50,659 nucleotides of DNA from Desulfurellales bacterium (GTDB lineage Bacteria; Campylobacterota_A; Desulfurellia; Desulfurellales; Hippeaceae). The stretch covers positions 1-50,659 of the forward strand of contig JALVUQ010000040.1 of assembly GCA_027035575.1 (NCBI GenBank), given 5' to 3'. Positions within the stretch are counted from its first letter, which is position 1. Each line of letters begins with the position of its first letter. Positions 13,189 through 31,038 of the stretch are shown piece by piece. The position numbers and the translations under genes are program-made. The notes under the pieces are model-generated. The model saw only the letters and a program-made list of their open reading frames with translations, had not been told where the DNA came from and did no database searches.

Positions 13189-14214
13189 GTGGAGCTGTTG
13201 GATAGATTGGAAGAGTCCATAATTATAACCGACAAAAGCGGTGTGGTGAAGTATTCAAACAACTCTGCCCGTTCGCTGCTTGATATCGAAAGAAAAAATA
13301 AAATAACAACCGTTTTCAAGCCGGATGACAGGGAGATATTTTTTGTAAATTTAATGAGAATTGTGGAAAAGTACGGAAAATATCACAACTTCATCAGGCT
13401 TGTTTCAAAACAAGACAGTCTTATCTTTTGTTGGTTAAACGCTTTTACATATAATGACGATATTGTTTTTGAGATTTTTGACCTGTCCAAGGCAAGTTCC
13501 AACAATCCTAATATCAATGACGATAACTATGTTAGGCTGTTAAAATATATGTCGGAAGGCGTTGCCCACTCAATAAGAAATCCGATTATGTCGGCGGGCG
13601 GGATGCTTAACAGGTTAAAAAGCAAACTTCCCAAAGAGACGTCTGACAGCATTCTTTCTTACATAGAAATTGTAGAAAAGAGCCTGTATAAAATTATGCA
13701 TATCATTGCAAACATAGAAGTCATAAGCAACTCGTTACCGGCTTCTTTGAAAAAGATAGATTTGAGCGAAGTTGTCAGAAATGTGGCTGAAAAATATAAA
13801 AAATTCGACAATATTACTATCAATATTAAGGCTCAAGAGAGCGTTGAGATTTATGCGGACGATTCCCATATTGCTTTCGTTATCGAAGAAATTGTGAAAA
13901 ATTCATACGATGCGTCGGGTGGAGAGGCGGTTGTTGTTGACATAGAAATTAAAAAAGAACAAGAAAAAGCTGTTGTGGTTATATCGGATAACGGTCCGGG
14001 AATTGAGGATGAGAACATTCCTTTGGTTATGATTCCGTTTTACTCCACAAAGCCGAGCAATATGGGGGTGGGCTTGTCTTTATCGAAATTTATAGTTGAA
14101 GGTTATGGCGGCAGTATTGAAATAGATTCAAAAAAGGGTGAAGGAACAACTTTAATCGTGACGCTGCCGGTTGAAAAGAGAAATATTTTAAGAAGAGAAG
14201 TGGTAGATGTCTAA
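13189..14214 (+). CDS. Soluble PAS-domain sensor histidine kinase, NtrB-like
   Basis: This protein of about 341 residues has no membrane segment. An N-terminal PAS-like domain (about 1-100, LLDRLEESIIITDKSGVVKY) precedes a HisKA segment with GVAHSIRNPIMSAGGML (His127 from this start) and a complete HATPase (EIVKNSYDAS, VVISDNGPGIED, GVGLSLSKFIVEGYGG). The residue after the phosphorylatable His is Ser, where most HisKA kinases have Glu or Asp. I chose the GTG at 13189 over 13180 because AGGAG at 13176-13180 is then correctly spaced. It overlaps the Cache-HAMP sensor gene by 8 bp and sits in front of cheA, so it may take input from that sensor. No dedicated response regulator is adjacent. Confidence 0.85.
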   Translation: MELLDRLEESIIITDKSGVVKYSNNSARSLLDIERKNKITTVFKPDDREIFFVNLMRIVEKYGKYHNFIRLVSKQDSLIFCWLNAFTYNDDIVFEIFDLSKASSNNPNINDDNYVRLLKYMSEGVAHSIRNPIMSAGGMLNRLKSKLPKETSDSILSYIEIVEKSLYKIMHIIANIEVISNSLPASLKKIDLSEVVRNVAEKYKKFDNITINIKAQESVEIYADDSHIAFVIEEIVKNSYDASGGEAVVVDIEIKKEQEKAVVVISDNGPGIEDENIPLVMIPFYSTKPSNMGVGLSLSKFIVEGYGGSIEIDSKKGEGTTLIVTLPVEKRNILRREVVDV

Positions 14215-15418
14215 GATAAATAAACTATCGAAAAAGATTATAATATACACGACGTCACTTATTCTTTTAGTAACACTGATTTTTACCGTGGTTTCTATGT
14301 CGGCTTTGATGATGTTTAAGAAATATACAATAAACAAAACCGAAAATACGTTTAAAGATAACGCCAACAGAAACTTGGAAAGAGAGGTTGTATTTTACGC
14401 CAAGATTTTAAAGAAAGCTATGGATTCGAGAAGTAAGACGGTTTTTATGTTCGGTAAGATGCTTGATAAGGAGATAGAGGCTTATAAAAATTGCAAAAAT
14501 AAGAACTTTCTTACGGATATTTATGAGGAGATGAATCAATCCTTTGACATAAGGGATATTGAGATATTGAACTCAAATTTTAAGGTTTTGTGTAAATTCC
14601 CCGAATACATAGACACATCCTCCATACCGAGCCTGTTAAAAGAAACGGTTAAACCGACGGATAGATTTATATCAAGGATAAGATATATTGACTTTCATAA
14701 AAATAGCGATAACAGCGTGTCCTATTCTTATGTCTATTTGACCAAAGCCAACGATAAAAGCCCCATATTTGTGGTTTTTGATTTTAACCCTTACAGTATG
14801 TATTCTTTGATAAAAACGGCGCAGCTCTACCCGTATTCTCAAAAATATCTGTGGGTTATAAATAGAAAAGGAGTGTTGATATACGACCCTCCGACAAAAA
14901 ATCACCCCTTGATTACACTGTTGGATAATGTAAACTTGACAAATCCGAAAAACGGTTTGGCATTAAGCGAGATTGTCAAAAATAAAATATTAAAGGGCGG
15001 TACGGGCGTATCGAGATATATTTTTAGAAATGTTGACAAATTCGTGGGATACACTTATATTAAAGAATTGGGATGGGGGCTTGGTTTGACGCTTCCTACC
15101 GAGGAGTTTTACGCCCCCATTATCAATTTGAGCAGGGATATTGATGTTAAGACCATACACACACTGTCAGTATTGAGCATAGTCAATGCCATAATTATAT
15201 TGATTGGTGTGACGGTTGCTATGTTTGTCTCTAAGAAGATTACAAGCCCCATCAACAGGACGATAGAGGCAATAGATGCCCTGATTAAAGAGGGTAAGTT
15301 GAAAAAGCTTTCAATAGAAGGGGATGATGAGTTGCAGGATCTGGCTTTGTCTGTAAACAAACTGATGGATTTTTTTGATAAAGTATGCGCTAATTCGGAT
15401 AAAACAAAGGGGGTCTAA
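14207..15418 (+). CDS. Membrane Cache-HAMP sensor protein without output domain
   Basis: This 403-residue protein has a TM helix at about 10-35 and a large periplasmic region at about 40-315, with double-Cache character (YLWVINRKGVLIYDPP, FVGYTYIKELGWGLGLTLP). A second TM at about 320-345 is followed by a HAMP domain (KKITSPINRTIEAIDALIKE, then DELQDLALSVNKLMDFF), where the protein ends. Normally such a module is followed by a kinase, MCP or GGDEF domain; none is present. The gene lies between a soluble PAS kinase (8-bp overlap) and cheA (start codon directly after this stop). It could pass ligand signals to either kinase. The ligand is unknown; small carboxylates or amino acids are common for dCache domains. 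Confidence 0.8.
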   Translation: MSKINKLSKKIIIYTTSLILLVTLIFTVVSMSALMMFKKYTINKTENTFKDNANRNLEREVVFYAKILKKAMDSRSKTVFMFGKMLDKEIEAYKNCKNKNFLTDIYEEMNQSFDIRDIEILNSNFKVLCKFPEYIDTSSIPSLLKETVKPTDRFISRIRYIDFHKNSDNSVSYSYVYLTKANDKSPIFVVFDFNPYSMYSLIKTAQLYPYSQKYLWVINRKGVLIYDPPTKNHPLITLLDNVNLTNPKNGLALSEIVKNKILKGGTGVSRYIFRNVDKFVGYTYIKELGWGLGLTLPTEEFYAPIINLSRDIDVKTIHTLSVLSIVNAIIILIGVTVAMFVSKKITSPINRTIEAIDALIKEGKLKKLSIEGDDELQDLALSVNKLMDFFDKVCANSDKTKGV

Positions 15419-17803
15419 ATGGCTGATAATATGGAAGAGATGGAAGAGATAGTTCAGGATTTTTTACTTGAAGCAGAGGAGCTTTTGGAGGAGCTTGATG
15501 AAGATTTGGTAAAGCTTGAAAGCTCCGGTGACGATACCGACCTTTTGAATAAGATATTCAGAGCCTTTCACACAATTAAGGGTTCATCGAGTTTTTTGGG
15601 CTTTGAGACCCTGACACACCTGACTCACAGACTTGAAGATGTTTTGAATAAGTTAAGAAAATTTGAGCTTTCTTTAAGCAGCGAACTGATGGATGCCATA
15701 TTAGCCGGCGTTGACAAGGCAAAAGAGATTATAGAGGTAATTAAGGAAAAGGGTGACCCTGAGGCTATAGATGTGGAAGAGAACATACAGGCTTTAAGCA
15801 AGTTTTTGGAAGAACCTCAAGAGCCTCAAGAGGAGATTTCAGAAGAAGAGCTTTTAAAGGAGCAGGAAGAGGAGATAAAAGAAGAGGAACTTTTGGAGAA
15901 CGTAGAAGCCGAACAAGAGGCTGAAGAGCCGAAGGAAGAAAAATCCGAAAACAAAGCAAAAAAAAGCGATGATGAAATAGAGGCTGAAATACAGAGGCTT
16001 CTTGCGCAAAGAATGGAAGAAGACAGAAAGAAACGACAGCAAAAAAAACAACAGGAAGAACAAAAGCAAAAAGAAACTCAAAAGGAAGAAGATAAACAGG
16101 TTCAAGCTCAACAACAACCCACTCAAGAAACCAAACCACAGGCTCAAAAACAGCAAACAAAAGCAAAATCCAAGTCCAAGCCGGTTATAGAGCAGACAAT
16201 CAGGGTTGATGTTACAAGATTGGATGATTTGATGAATCTTGTGGGTGAGCTTGTTTTGGGCAAAAACAGATTGGTAAGCGTTGCACAAAAAGCCGAGGAG
16301 AAGTTTGAGGGTGACGATATAGTCGAGGAGTTATCAGGTGTTGCATCCCAGATAACACTTGTAACTACCGATTTGCAGATGGGAGTTATGAAAACGAGAA
16401 TGGTGCAGGTCGGTAAGGTGTTTAATAAGTTCCCAAGGGTTGTACGTGATATATCCAAAGAATTGAATAAAGAGGTTGAGCTAATTATAGAGGGTGCGGA
16501 AACCGAGCTTGACAAGAGTGTCGTTGAGGAGATTAACGACCCGCTTGTTCATATAATTAGAAACGCCATTGACCACGGAATAGAGCCGAAAGAAAAAAGG
16601 CTGGCTGCCGGAAAACCGCCGAAGGGCAAGATAGTTCTTTCTGCTTTTCACGAAGGTAATTACATAATAATAAAAACAACGGACGACGGCGGAGGAATGG
16701 ACCCTGAAGTCTTAAAGAGCAAGGCTTTGGAAAAAGGTCTCATAACGGAAACCGAAGCAAGGCAGATGACAAAGGAAGAGGCATTTGGGCTTATATTCAA
16801 ACCCGGTTTCTCGACCGCTCAAAAGGTCAGCAATATTTCAGGGCGCGGTGTCGGAATGGATGTTGTTAAAACAAACATAGAAAAGCTCAACGGAACGATT
16901 GAGGTTCAATCGGAAATCAATAAAGGAACTACAATAATGCTTAAGATTCCTTTAACACTCGCTATTATTCAAGCTTTATTGGTAAAGGTTACAAAGGAAT
17001 TCTTTGCCATTCCTCTTGTCAGTGTTGTTGAAACTGTAAGAATCAGCAAAGATGATATAAAAAAAGTGGAAAACAGGGATGTCTTGAGATTAAGAGACAG
17101 CATCATTCCTCTTGTTTATCTCGGCGACGCTCTCGGAATAGGAAAAAACAAAAAGACGATAGATTCAAAAGAGATATATGTGGTCGTTGTTGCCGTTGCC
17201 GAGAAGAAGATAGGTCTGGTTGTTGATAAATTGATTGGCAGGGAGGAGATTGTCATAAAATCCCTCGGTCATTATCTAACCAATATCAAATCAATCTCAG
17301 GTGCCACAATAATGGGAGACGGTTCGGTTACGCTTATTCTCGACATTCCTTCCATTGTAGGTGAGGCTGCAAACGTGGAAACAAATATAGAAGACCACTT
17401 TGCCGATAAAGCTATTGAGATGAAGAGCAAGCCGTCCTGCTTGATAGTGTCGGCTGAAGATGAGATAAAACACTCCATTGGTCAATATATGAAAGAAGCG
17501 GATTTTGAGATATATGAAGCTTCAAACGATAAAGAGGGTCTTGATATTGCATCCGAAAACATAGTAGATGTCATATTTATAGATTTGGACATACCGATAA
17601 ACGACGGTTATAACTTTACGAGACTGATTAGGACATTTCCGTCTTATAAGGATGTTTTTGTGGTGGGTGTATCAACAGACGGAACATTCGATAAGGAGAA
17701 GGTTAGTGAAGTTTTAATGAATAAGATTATTTTCCACCCGATAACTATAAAGGATATCGATGCGGTGATGGAGATGATTACAAAAAGAATAAAAGTGGCT
17801 TAA
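15419..17803 (+). CDS. cheA: Chemotaxis histidine kinase CheA with C-terminal receiver domain (CheAY)
   Basis: This 794-residue protein has an HPt/P1 domain with the phosphorylated His51 in AFHTIKGSSSFLG. A Glu/Gln/Lys-rich low-complexity linker (about 130-255) replaces a recognisable P2 CheY-binding domain. The P3 dimerisation helices (RLDDLMNLVGELVLGKNRL) start near 265. The P4 ATPase has RNAIDHGIEP, DDGGGMD and GRGVGMDVVK, and P5, the CheW-like domain, is at about 510-650. A receiver domain at about 673-790 has Asp722 as likely phospho-acceptor, but the conserved Lys of the KP motif is His773 (IIFHPIT). CheA-receiver fusions are typical of Campylobacterota. The following gap to cheW is 13 bp to the chosen start. 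Confidence 0.95.
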   Translation: MADNMEEMEEIVQDFLLEAEELLEELDEDLVKLESSGDDTDLLNKIFRAFHTIKGSSSFLGFETLTHLTHRLEDVLNKLRKFELSLSSELMDAILAGVDKAKEIIEVIKEKGDPEAIDVEENIQALSKFLEEPQEPQEEISEEELLKEQEEEIKEEELLENVEAEQEAEEPKEEKSENKAKKSDDEIEAEIQRLLAQRMEEDRKKRQQKKQQEEQKQKETQKEEDKQVQAQQQPTQETKPQAQKQQTKAKSKSKPVIEQTIRVDVTRLDDLMNLVGELVLGKNRLVSVAQKAEEKFEGDDIVEELSGVASQITLVTTDLQMGVMKTRMVQVGKVFNKFPRVVRDISKELNKEVELIIEGAETELDKSVVEEINDPLVHIIRNAIDHGIEPKEKRLAAGKPPKGKIVLSAFHEGNYIIIKTTDDGGGMDPEVLKSKALEKGLITETEARQMTKEEAFGLIFKPGFSTAQKVSNISGRGVGMDVVKTNIEKLNGTIEVQSEINKGTTIMLKIPLTLAIIQALLVKVTKEFFAIPLVSVVETVRISKDDIKKVENRDVLRLRDSIIPLVYLGDALGIGKNKKTIDSKEIYVVVVAVAEKKIGLVVDKLIGREEIVIKSLGHYLTNIKSISGATIMGDGSVTLILDIPSIVGEAANVETNIEDHFADKAIEMKSKPSCLIVSAEDEIKHSIGQYMKEADFEIYEASNDKEGLDIASENIVDVIFIDLDIPINDGYNFTRLIRTFPSYKDVFVVGVSTDGTFDKEKVSEVLMNKIIFHPITIKDIDAVMEMITKRIKVA

Positions 17804-18373: not shown

Positions 18374-19315
18374 ATGGAAGACAAGATTGATATATTACAG
18401 GTCGGCACAAACCAGATGGAGCTTGTTGATTTCAGGATGTACGAACACAAGCCCGACGGTACGATATACGAAGGAATATACGGAATAAATATTGCCAAAG
18501 TTAAAGAGATTATAAAGTATCCGAACGTTATAAAGATACCATCCAAAGAGTCTCTTCTTGAGGGAATTTACAATCTAAGGGGAGAGGTTATACCTATTGT
18601 CAGTTTGGCAAAGTGGTTAAATATCAACGAACCTTCGGACATAACAACAAGAAAGGTTATCATTACACTTTTTAATAATATTACCGTAGGATTCATAGTT
18701 CATGATGCCAAAAGAATAAGAAGGGTTTCCTGGAGGTTTGTCAAGCCGCCGAGTGAGGTCTTGAAACACCAATACGGTAATAAAATTGTCGGAACGATAA
18801 ATCTGGACGAAGAACACGTTATGCTTATTCTGGATTTTGAGAGCATCTGTGAAGAGCTTGGAATTTTCTCGGAAGAGGATATAAAGAGAATTGAACGAGT
18901 TGCAATAGAGGCAGGTAAAGAGAAGAAAAAAGCAAAGATTCTTATAGCCGACGACTCGTCAACGGCAAGAAAGATAATTAAAAAAGCCGTGGCTCCTTTG
19001 GCAGAGGATATAATAGAAACAACAGACGGGCAGGAGGCTTGGGATATGCTGAACAAGCTTTATGAAAACTCAAACGGAGATATAAAAAATTTTGTTGATA
19101 TAGTTATAACGGATGTTGAAATGCCCAATATGGACGGTTACAGACTAACGAAACTGATAAAGGAAGACGAGAGATTTAAGAACCTTCCTGTTGTTATGAA
19201 TACATCCCTTTCGGGAAATGCCAACCTTCAGAAAGCCAAAGATGTGGGGGTTGACGATTTCTGCACTAAATTTATAGCCGATGAGTTTACAAGGGCTGTG
19301 GCTAAAAATATATAA
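18374..19315 (+). CDS. cheV: CheV: CheW-receiver fusion chemotaxis adaptor
   Basis: This 313-residue protein has a CheW-like domain at about 10-165 (IPSKESLLEGIYNLRGEVIP) and a receiver domain at about 185-313 (ILIADDSSTARKII, IVITDVEMPNMDGYRLTK). The phospho-acceptor Asp lies in ITDVEMP. The conserved Lys is kept (CTKFIADEF), though the usual following Pro is Phe. CheV proteins couple receptors to CheA and can adapt or drain phosphate from the kinase. Preceded by AAGGGG, 14 bp after cheW. Confidence 0.93.
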   Translation: MEDKIDILQVGTNQMELVDFRMYEHKPDGTIYEGIYGINIAKVKEIIKYPNVIKIPSKESLLEGIYNLRGEVIPIVSLAKWLNINEPSDITTRKVIITLFNNITVGFIVHDAKRIRRVSWRFVKPPSEVLKHQYGNKIVGTINLDEEHVMLILDFESICEELGIFSEEDIKRIERVAIEAGKEKKKAKILIADDSSTARKIIKKAVAPLAEDIIETTDGQEAWDMLNKLYENSNGDIKNFVDIVITDVEMPNMDGYRLTKLIKEDERFKNLPVVMNTSLSGNANLQKAKDVGVDDFCTKFIADEFTRAVAKNI

Positions 19316-19327
19316 GGAGCGTAAGAT

Positions 19328-19804
19328 ATGGCGAAACTAAGCGTTGAATGGATAAATCCGTTTATTGAAGCAGCAGAGGAAATTATGGATACTGTGGCTA
19401 TGTTGAAATTAAAAAGAGGGAAACTTGAGCTGCGGGAAAACAGCACCGTTGCTTACGATGTAAGCGGTATAATAGGCATAACCGGTGAAGCCGTCGGTTC
19501 AATTGCACTGTCTTTTCCAAAAAAAACGGCAATTGCTGCCGTCAGCAATTTCATAGGAGAAGAGGTGTTGGGGATAGACAGCGACACAACCGATGCCATA
19601 GGAGAGTTGACAAATATGGTAGCAGGACGTGCAAAAAAGATATTCTCAGAGCGCAATGTCAAACTTAAAATATCCACACCAAATGTTGTTGTGGGAAAGA
19701 ATCACACCATAGTTTCGCCAAAAGGAACGCCCAGCATTGTTATACCTTTTGAATCCGATGCTGGAGAGCTGGCTATACAGGTAGCTTTAAAGCCGGCAGT
19801 ATAA
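19328..19804 (+). CDS. cheX: CheX-family CheY-P phosphatase
   Basis: This 158-residue protein is of the CheC/CheX/FliY class. The single active-site motif ExxN is present as Glu93 and Asn96 in IGELTNMVAGRAKK; one such motif per chain and this length indicate CheX rather than CheC. CheX hydrolyses CheY-P as a dimer. It sits 12 bp after cheV with AGGAG upstream, and is followed by a second, unrelated candidate phosphatase (CheZ-like). Confidence 0.87.
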   Translation: MAKLSVEWINPFIEAAEEIMDTVAMLKLKRGKLELRENSTVAYDVSGIIGITGEAVGSIALSFPKKTAIAAVSNFIGEEVLGIDSDTTDAIGELTNMVAGRAKKIFSERNVKLKISTPNVVVGKNHTIVSPKGTPSIVIPFESDAGELAIQVALKPAV

Positions 19805-19819
19805 TAAGGAGGATGGTTT

Positions 19820-20545
19820 ATGTCGCAGAGTGATATAGATAGCCTTATTGAGGAGTTTGGCAAAGCCGAAAAAGGCAGCATAGAAGATATAATAGACGAA
19901 TTTACTCAGGAAAGCTCTAAAGAGGAGTTGTCGAGAAAAGATAGTAAAGAAAATGAACAAACAAACTTGAAAGATGACGGTAACGGTTTGAGCCAGGAAA
20001 AGATTGAGGGGGTTCGTTTGCCGGAAAACGAGCATAGAGTTATAGATAAATTGGATGAGATAAATAAAGAGAGCGAAGAAAAGGTTAATAAACTTTTTGA
20101 ATATCTTGAAACAATAACCGACGAGTTAGATAAAACCGAGAAATTGATAAAAGAGATAAAACCGTATATGGAAAAGCATAAGGAATTTATGGATTTCTTT
20201 GTGGAGCATTTCCCGAAAACAGTTGTTAAAAATAATTATGAATATTTCAAAAATATAATCGATATTACAAAAGATATAGAAAATAGCGTTTCCGTTATCA
20301 GAAATAACGTGTTTGACGCTATGGATACGCTGCAATTTCAGGATATAACAAGACAAAAAATAGAAAGAGTTATAAGCGTGATTAAGGCTCTGCACGACTA
20401 TTTGAATATGTGGTTTGATTCGTCCTACGACGATAAGCCGAGGGCACGTGTGGCTCACACGATTGTAGATGAAAAAGAGAAGGATAAAATCGACCAAGAT
20501 GTTGAAGATATAATAAAACAAATGCAAGAAAAAGGAGAGATTTAG
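19820..20545 (+). CDS. cheZ: CheZ-like chemotaxis phosphatase with docking-like peptides at both ends
   Basis: This 241-residue, highly charged helical protein has, at about 85-195, a long four-helix-type segment with the CheZ signature LQFQDITRQKIERVI. Asp175 and Gln179 match E. coli CheZ Asp143/Gln147 in spacing. The N-terminus MSQSDIDSLIEEFG looks like the CheY-P-binding peptide of FliM/FliN (consensus around EIDALL). The extreme C-terminus DQDVEDIIKQM resembles the C-terminal CheY-binding helix of E. coli CheZ. The residues between are Ser/Lys/Glu-rich and probably disordered. It sits 15 bp after cheX and directly before cheY, which supports a role in CheY-P turnover. Family assignment is by motif, since CheZ proteins outside Proteobacteria diverge strongly. 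Confidence 0.78.
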   Translation: MSQSDIDSLIEEFGKAEKGSIEDIIDEFTQESSKEELSRKDSKENEQTNLKDDGNGLSQEKIEGVRLPENEHRVIDKLDEINKESEEKVNKLFEYLETITDELDKTEKLIKEIKPYMEKHKEFMDFFVEHFPKTVVKNNYEYFKNIIDITKDIENSVSVIRNNVFDAMDTLQFQDITRQKIERVISVIKALHDYLNMWFDSSYDDKPRARVAHTIVDEKEKDKIDQDVEDIIKQMQEKGEI

Positions 20546-20546
20546 G

Positions 20547-20921
20547 ATGAAAATAATAACTGTTGACGATTCCTCCACTATGAGAAGGATTATAAAAAAT
20601 ACACTCAAAAGAATAGGTTACGGAGATGAAATCTTAGAAGCCGGAGACGGGAAAGAGGCTTTGGATGTTTTGGCAAACAACAGCGTTGATTTGATAATAA
20701 CAGATTGGAATATGCCGGTTATGGACGGATTGACCTTTGTTAAACATATCAGGGCAGACAGTAAGTTTGATGATACTCCAATCATTATGGTTACGACAGA
20801 AGCTGCAAAAGAGGATATAATAACGGCATTAAAAGCCGGTGTTAACAATTATATAGTAAAGCCGTTTACGCCGGATGTTTTGAAAGATAAGATAGATACG
20901 GTTCTCGGCAAGAAAGATTAG
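20547..20921 (+). CDS. cheY: Chemotaxis response regulator CheY
   Basis: This 124-residue single receiver domain has all catalytic residues: the acidic pair in ITVDDSSTMRRII, phospho-acceptor Asp in IITDWNMPVMDG, Thr in MVTTEA and Lys in YIVKPFTPDVL. CheY-P binds FliM at the flagellar switch to control rotation. It starts 2 bp after the CheZ-like gene, and its stop directly precedes the GTG of the ABC ATPase gene. Confidence 0.96.
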   Translation: MKIITVDDSSTMRRIIKNTLKRIGYGDEILEAGDGKEALDVLANNSVDLIITDWNMPVMDGLTFVKHIRADSKFDDTPIIMVTTEAAKEDIITALKAGVNNYIVKPFTPDVLKDKIDTVLGKKD

Positions 20922-29472: not shown

Positions 29473-31038
29473 ATGGTATTTTCTCTATATTTTTGTGGAG
29501 GAAGTGGTGGTGGTAGTCCTTCTTCTCAAACAAGCGGCAAAAGCATTTCTGTTACCGGAAAAGTTTCAAGTTTGAGTTATACTGTAGCATACAACGGCAA
29601 TATTATAGACAAGATATTAAATTTTTTTACGGGAAGAAAAGTCGTAGCGGCAAGTGGTGAAGAGGTAGATGCTGTTTGGGGACTTCCCACATTAAAAGGG
29701 GAGATATCTCCTGAATCTTTTAAATACAAGGTGAATATACCCATTAATGCGGATGGCACTTTTACCGTAAATTTACCTAAAACTGCAAAGATTAACTTGG
29801 GAGGAAAGCAAGTAACTCTCAATTTGGATTGGATACTGCTTTTAATAAATACAAATGCTCAGAGCAAAAAAGATATGATTGTAGGCTATATCACTTTAAG
29901 CGACTCGAACGATTCTCTACTTTGGATACCTATATCGGATGCTCTGGGAAATATAAATTTAGGTGTATTGTCTCAAAATGGTAATGAGGCAAGGTCTTCT
30001 GCAACTCTTTCGGAAGAAGCGGGAACATTTTCCCTTTCTCTTAATCAGTTAAAGCAAATTGCAAAAAGCGACGATGTATTAAAAAACATAAAAAATATTT
30101 TTATGAACTATGACGAGAATACGGGAGAATATTGGATGCTTCAACCTTATTTCGGCTGGAACGATAATCCTTTGTCTATAAAAAATCAATGGTCTAATCC
30201 TGATAATCTCAGTTTTTACGGATACGCCTTCTACTTATCTACAAATAACACAACCAATCCAACGTTTAGCGACGTTTGTCAGGGTAATAAAATAATGAAA
30301 CTATATCCTCCTACTGCGATACATTTAATTGACACCTCTTCGGTTTCTTTTGACAACTCTACCCCAATTTATACTGAAAAAGCACAAATAGAAACCGATA
30401 GCGACGGAACACAGGAATGTTCCGGACATTATTTCTATTTAGCAACAGACAACGACTCGCTCAACCCCGGATATATGTACAACTTTATTGTAGGAGACAG
30501 CAATTTACTTGCACCGGATAATCAAACCCAACGCATACCTTCAGGTTACTGGACTCTTAAAATGTATGACAACACTACCCATTATGAAAGTACTGTTGCT
30601 ATGTTTGATCTATCGATAGCAAGTCCTTTTGATTCTGAAGGAAATCCGACTATCTTTTTCCCATCAGTTAAAGTAAACGTTGACAGCAACGATACTATAC
30701 AATCAATTCAAATAAAATTTTATACATTTAGCTCGTCCGGTTGGACGGAAGTTACAGACCCCGTGGTGCTTGAGAAAATGCTTTCGGAATTAGCCGTTTC
30801 CCTGGATTATTATGGAGGTAGCCAAAGAATAGAAGATAACTATTACGTCATTGGCGAAAACGATATATTATCCAATTCTTCTTTAACCTTACCTATAACC
30901 ATAGATGCGTCAAAACTTGACCACGTGTGGAAATTTAGTGGCTACAACGGTAATGCAGAGCCTGTTGCCGAATCTATATCCGTAGGATATTCAATGGGAA
31001 ATGTTGACTTTAGATTTGTCTGGAGAAACCAAAGTTAA
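29473..31038 (+). CDS. Putative surface lipoprotein, unknown function
   Basis: This reading frame of about 521 residues begins MVFSLYFCGGSGGGSPSSQT: a hydrophobic stretch, a lipobox-like Cys and a Gly/Ser-rich tether. The rest is a Ser/Asn/Asp-rich, beta-strand-type extracellular sequence with no domain I can name. The start is doubtful. The hydrophobic stretch is too short for a full signal peptide, no ribosome-binding site precedes the ATG, and the open frame continues upstream to 29404 (including KCRYIVNYYFL) with no ATG, GTG or TTG. Either a rare start such as ATT at 29452 is used or the 5' end was damaged. The Cys plus low-complexity Gly/Ser design resembles the lipoprotein at 47367-50252. 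A hairpin terminator follows. Confidence 0.65.
   Translation: MVFSLYFCGGSGGGSPSSQTSGKSISVTGKVSSLSYTVAYNGNIIDKILNFFTGRKVVAASGEEVDAVWGLPTLKGEISPESFKYKVNIPINADGTFTVNLPKTAKINLGGKQVTLNLDWILLLINTNAQSKKDMIVGYITLSDSNDSLLWIPISDALGNINLGVLSQNGNEARSSATLSEEAGTFSLSLNQLKQIAKSDDVLKNIKNIFMNYDENTGEYWMLQPYFGWNDNPLSIKNQWSNPDNLSFYGYAFYLSTNNTTNPTFSDVCQGNKIMKLYPPTAIHLIDTSSVSFDNSTPIYTEKAQIETDSDGTQECSGHYFYLATDNDSLNPGYMYNFIVGDSNLLAPDNQTQRIPSGYWTLKMYDNTTHYESTVAMFDLSIASPFDSEGNPTIFFPSVKVNVDSNDTIQSIQIKFYTFSSSGWTEVTDPVVLEKMLSELAVSLDYYGGSQRIEDNYYVIGENDILSNSSLTLPITIDASKLDHVWKFSGYNGNAEPVAESISVGYSMGNVDFRFVWRNQS

Follow-up and report, generated by a model that had tools for sequence, protein, structure and literature searches.

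The CheZ protein encoded in the window, by which we mean the whole 50,659-nucleotide stretch of DNA analysed here, begins with a short peptide that closely resembles the N-termini of the motor proteins FliM and FliY. This peptide is near-invariant in one clade of CheZ proteins. The best explanation, to which we assign a probability of roughly 0.6, is that this clade gained an N-terminal arm that would dock phosphorylated CheY (CheY-P) and tether it at the catalytic site, beside an ancestral C-terminal tail. What the analysis shows is the sequence, its conservation, its restriction to the clade and the predicted architecture; binding, partner and effect are inferred.

We propose tethering by the N-terminal arm because peptides of the EIDALL and CheZ-tail types bind CheY, and because the cognate cheY is encoded beside cheZ. 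The EIDALL motif of FliM and FliY is the site at which CheY-P binds (PMC9126983), and the C-terminal peptide of CheZ also binds CheY, as cited in two further papers (PMC11528121, PMC12270135).

The cheZ gene, its product and its operon

The operon has the order kinase-(membrane sensor)-cheA-cheW-cheV-cheX-cheZ-cheY. The cheZ start codon has a Shine-Dalgarno sequence upstream, and 16 further distinct orthologues share the same start position. The open reading frame, its coordinates and the sequences of both termini are exactly as reported in a first-pass annotation of this DNA. The features referred to below are these:

15419..17803, + strand: cheA with a C-terminal receiver, a possible alternative ligand for the N-terminal peptide (Hpt, HATPase, CheW, Response_reg)
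18374..19315, + strand: cheV (CheW plus receiver), a possible alternative ligand for the N-terminal peptide (PF01584, PF00072)
19328..19804, + strand: cheX, of a second CheY-P phosphatase family (PF13690, E=1.8e-25)
19820..20545, + strand: cheZ, 241 aa, H. pylori/Campylobacterota-type CheZ phosphatase (NF041271 Phos_CheZ and catalytic motif core)
19823..19864, + strand: FliM/FliY-like candidate docking peptide of CheZ, SQSDIDSLIEEFGK, residues 2-15, with core SQSDIDSLI at residues 2-10 (PSSM score 19.4; AlphaFold2 helix 3-15)
19877..19903, + strand: second, weaker amphipathic segment SIEDIIDEF, residues 20-28 (hydrophobic pattern kept in Desulfurellia)
19904..20026, + strand: variable acidic linker, approximately residues 29-69 (predicted disordered; low conservation)
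20027..20419, + strand: helical hairpin, residues 70-200, predicted half of the dimeric four-helix CheZ bundle (AlphaFold2 helices 70-130 and 134-200)
20342..20356, + strand: catalytic D175...Q179 (DITRQ), invariant in a 57-row alignment
20492..20524, + strand: C-terminal tail helix DQDVEDIIKQM, residues 225-235, a diverged homologue of the CheY-binding tail
20547..20921, + strand: cheY, the presumed CheZ ligand (PF00072)

cheY is translationally coupled to cheZ, its start overlapping or nearly so, and the coupling is kept in relatives. The closest solved structure to the window CheY is the CheY homologue 3gwg (E=2.6e-46), which we take to be H. pylori CheY1. CheX and CheZ, which belong to unrelated CheY-P phosphatase families, adjoin in this one operon (19328-20545). 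Two other coding sequences of the window are without a Pfam match: positions 14207-15418, upstream of cheA, likely encode a membrane sensor, and positions 29473-31038 encode a protein of 521 aa whose start resembles that of a lipoprotein. The closest records are Desulfurellaceae/Desulfurellales and Hippea MAGs, which NCBI places in Campylobacterota, class Desulfurellia.

The CheZ sequence matches NF041271 over its full length (1-237/242, E=4.3e-30) with 105 bits, below the 350-bit equivalog cut-off, and we classify it by this match as a remote member of that H. pylori-type family. Its match to PF04344 (E=3e-4) reaches 21.1 bits, below the gathering cut-off of 30.7, which a distant Desulfurellia CheZ (G002) narrowly clears at 31.5. 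The catalytic motif core QxQDIxRQ is invariant, and D175 and Q179 of the window's QFQDITRQ (D-x-x-x-Q) are unchanged in 57 sequences of the clade. These two residues correspond by motif to D189 and Q193 of H. pylori CheZ, whose phosphatase activity is known according to the same source, citing its ref. 63 (PMC11237671). Judged by family and motif, this protein serves the Campylobacterota/Desulfurellia lineage as its CheY-P phosphatase.

AlphaFold2, run on a 56-row alignment (mean pLDDT 69), placed helices at residues 3-15 and 18-39, disorder at about 40-69, a hairpin at 70-130/134-200, a loop, and a C-terminal helix at 218-237. The predicted architecture is the CheZ plan plus an extra N-terminal arm; E. 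coli CheZ (PF04344) likewise has a helical hairpin with the D/Q catalytic pair, a linker and a C-terminal helix. A Foldseek search of the model against the PDB returned generic helical matches only, none of them significant, and CheZ was not among the matches of a PDB sequence search with a Desulfurellia CheZ profile. Because Foldseek gave no CheZ structure match, the fold assignment rests on sequence.

A motor-like peptide at the N-terminus

We scored N-termini on a nine-column matrix whose sole input was 35 N-terminal sequences of FliM and FliY from the same phylum (LSQEEIDALL and LSQDEIDSLF types). SQSDIDSLI scores 19.4 bits, a level like that of the FliM and FliY docking peptides of the same lineage, and this score was reached by 4 of 200,000 composition-preserving shuffles of the first 60 residues of CheZ. 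The best score elsewhere in the window's open reading frames was 11.7. Among 758 distinct ORF N-termini, scores of at least 12 occurred in FliM, FliY and the CheZ of this clade only. The peptide fits the docking-peptide pattern [ST]Qx[DE]IDxL[LIF] and matches the N-termini of the genome's own FliM (LSQEEIDALL) and FliY (LSQDEIDSLF). The first-pass annotation had likened this terminus to EIDALL-type peptides of FliM/FliN, and the shuffles confirm that likeness far above chance. Q3, I6, D7 and L9 are invariant in 17 Desulfurellia CheZ, with codons that vary at Q3, I6 and L9.

The same annotation had described a flexible linker between this peptide and the catalytic bundle, which is borne out: the segment is predicted to be disordered (pLDDT below 50 at residues 30-68) and is poorly conserved, residues 29-62 averaging 26% pairwise identity. 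It is also acidic and of low complexity. Between peptide and linker, SIEDIIDEF scores 2.4, a value that 9% of shuffles reach; it may be a degenerate, faded duplicate of the N-terminal peptide. An arrangement of three equal docking peptides (the N-terminal peptide, residues 20-28 and the C-terminal tail) was considered and set aside as unproven, as the first alone scores above chance.

Conservation and divergence of the two termini

To compare termini across lineages we counted scores of at least 8 on the FliM/FliY matrix, a threshold reached by 0.5% of random ends. The N-terminus reaches it in 17/17 Desulfurellia CheZ, in 66/68 from Campylobacterota (including C. jejuni) and in 0/19 from other phyla, so that orthologue alignment, which had been proposed as a check on the SDIDSLI motif, finds it kept clade-wide. 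The C-terminus reaches the same threshold in 0/17, 57/68 and 12/19, respectively. Over 56 CheZ of both lineages, pairwise identity is 76.5% in the N-motif columns, 45% in the whole hairpin and 13% in the linker. Together, the shuffles and this conservation lead us to reject the idea that the motif arose by chance or from composition.

CheZ is present in 246 of the 298 Campylobacterota genomes searched, and every full-length Campylobacterota CheZ inspected starts with the peptide or a close variant, the Arcobacter-type start being MSMSQEEIEALMNG. One C. jejuni CheZ begins MTQEELDALMNGD... and ends SNDDIEALIASLGQK; its gene lies on plasmid pCJ41K-01 (NZ_CP048757.1 26305-30814) in what is apparently a chromosomal block of flgG, glnA, cheZ, a U32 peptidase gene and purE. 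The CheZ of H. pylori and C. jejuni (NF041271; ‘remote CheZ’) shares with the window protein the full-length family match, the catalytic motif and an N-terminal peptide of this type, which in C. jejuni reads MTQEELDALM. Unlike the drifted tails of Desulfurellia, a strong FliM-like C-terminal tail is kept in the C. jejuni type (SNDDIEALIASLG), and cheZ there sits beside a U32 peptidase gene, whereas in the window it belongs to the che operon. The CheZ of other phyla differ from the window protein in having no FliM-like N-terminus and mostly the classical C-terminal tail alone.

In a tree made from the CheZ core only, a small third phylum groups with Campylobacterota and Desulfurellia at 99% SH-aLRT, and a long branch separates this clade from the rest. 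Because this tree unites the lineages with the N-terminal motif and the 19 CheZ of other phyla lack it, the simplest reading is that the peptide arose once, in this clade. Two proteins of the small further phylum, L193 and L194, belong to the same clade yet have weak scores at the extreme N-terminus (5.3 and 4.5), a point against the docking-arm explanation. In the CheZ-like L194 (90-875, + strand), the N-terminal part holds up to three docking-like sequences (NNIDDLLKEFG, ADDIDALIESV and DIVDEILAEL), and the protein stops directly behind the hairpin with no C-terminal tail; ADDIDALI alone scores well (11.2), and the record begins at a contig edge. For these two reasons the arrangement is no more than suggestive.

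In the window, the C-terminal tail forms an amphipathic helix that is conserved and lies where expected, with D225, V228 and I231 invariant in Desulfurellia. It aligns with the Campylobacterota tail (DVEDIIKQM vs DIEALIASL), and by this alignment we take it to be homologous to the CheY-binding tail. The first-pass comparison of DQDVEDIIKQM with that tail thus holds for homology and conservation, but its docking score lies at chance: -0.8 on the FliM matrix, which 23% of shuffles reach, and 1.1 on a matrix of other-phylum CheZ tails, which 8% reach. On the latter matrix the N-terminal peptide scores 15.7. Docking-like peptides at both termini, as first described for the window protein, are clear in Campylobacterota, but the C-terminal one has drifted from consensus in the lineage to which the window belongs. 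Since the tail drifted there, the N-terminal arm is probably the main, putative docking site of Desulfurellia CheZ.

Two observations concern CheZ tails elsewhere. Three distant CheZ-like proteins (L053, L058 and L060) have tails that are nearly exact FliM peptides (SQEDIDNIF, SQEEIDRIL and TQESIDKYF), which suggests that FliM and CheZ docking peptides have converged repeatedly. A natural CheW-CheZ fusion (L151, 1234-2421, - strand; PF01584 E=4e-34, PF04344 E=1.1e-35) ends in a clear docking tail, SQEDVDDLLKEFGF, and is apparently a phosphatase wired into the receptor array.

Candidate roles of the N-terminal arm

CheZ C-terminal and FliM peptides share a common face of CheY, alpha4-beta5-alpha5. 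Because both use this face, one CheY should be unable to take up the N- and C-terminal peptides of CheZ at the same time. The first-pass annotation had suggested bivalent capture of CheY-P, which is unlikely if it means two peptides on a single CheY; for the FliM side, use of this face is documented (PMC11528121). A more sensible form of bivalency would be one peptide together with the active site, or two CheY per subunit.

In the reading that we favour, the arm would consist of a helix-forming peptide of 9-13 residues, with consensus [ST]Q-x-[ED]-[IL]-D-x-L-[ILM], carried by an acidic linker that is long and flexible. In the manner of the FliM/FliY peptide, it would dock on alpha4-beta5-alpha5 of phosphorylated CheY, and so tether CheY-P beside the catalytic D175/Q179 of the bundle, the active site providing the second contact. 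Tethering may speed the capture of CheY-P, or each dimer may hold extra CheY-P on its other peptides, drawing CheY-P off the motor. In Campylobacterota CheZ, both docking ends would be intact and partly redundant. A functional precedent exists in FliY (CheC-type), a CheY-P phosphatase with an N-terminal EIDALL-type CheY-binding peptide (PMC9126983, PMC8809382), although its phosphatase fold is unrelated to CheZ and it belongs to the motor C-ring. The FliM N-terminal peptide shares the consensus SQ[ED]EID[AS]LL and the helix, but FliM is a switch protein and no phosphatase. We put forward more tentatively, at somewhat less than even odds, a stronger version: CheY-P docking would have been added at the N-terminus by convergence on the FliM/FliY peptide and, in Desulfurellia, largely moved there, giving dimers with at most four docking arms that would actively pull CheY-P away from the motor or buffer it. 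This version also takes in the tailless L194, from a sister lineage, with its several docking-like N-terminal peptides.

The arm is best read as having CheY-P for its partner, or else a receiver domain related to CheY. When N-terminal regions of H. pylori CheZ are deleted, its phosphatase function and its biofilm role persist, whereas a C-terminal deletion affects them, as summarised in PMC11237671 from its ref. 63. This result counts against docking by the N-terminal arm. It fits redundancy with an intact tail, but also targeting to the receivers of CheV, CheA or ChePep. A peptide that binds such a receiver (CheV, the C-terminal receiver of CheA, or ChePep in Campylobacterota) would serve to position CheZ, at the array or at the pole, and not to feed its active site. 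The CheA and CheV of this operon carry receivers, both the polar localisation and the function of H. pylori CheZ depend on ChePep (PMC11237671), and in another bacterium the N-terminal region of CheZ alone suffices for polar localisation (PMC7750401). We nonetheless consider this explanation unlikely: the peptide matches those of FliM/FliY and of CheZ tails, whose known ligand is CheY-P, and ChePep has been described only from members of Campylobacterota (PMC11237671).

The idea offered in the first-pass annotation, that the peptide mimics the motor and competes with FliM/FliY for CheY-P, would raise the switching threshold and leave catalysis unchanged. Competition with FliM is possible, given a peptide near-identical to the organism's own FliM and FliY peptides; as the whole account it appears improbable, since it requires a CheZ copy number comparable to that of the motor peptides and is itself a special case of CheY-P docking. 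A coincidentally similar acidic-amphipathic N-terminus, serving for example solubility or as a coiled-coil cap, would suit the acidic, low-complexity linker adjoining it, but is already disfavoured to the point of being very improbable by the shuffles, by conservation exceeding that of the whole catalytic bundle across phylum-level divergence, and by the absence of the motif, within the 758 N-termini, from anything other than FliM, FliY and the CheZ of this clade.

Our literature searches found no earlier description of a motor-like N-terminal CheZ peptide; key H. pylori CheZ papers (2006, 2010, 2015) were outside their reach, which makes any claim to priority provisional. The N-terminal region of H. 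pylori CheZ has been described as of ‘unknown function’ (PMC11237671). Docking of CheY-P by a near-invariant, clade-wide FliM-like peptide gives this region of H. pylori-type CheZ a precise, testable candidate role in organisms that are well studied. A wider suggestion is that enzymes of signal termination may evolve by copying the ligand-binding peptide of the output device, so that motor and phosphatase would then compete for one site.
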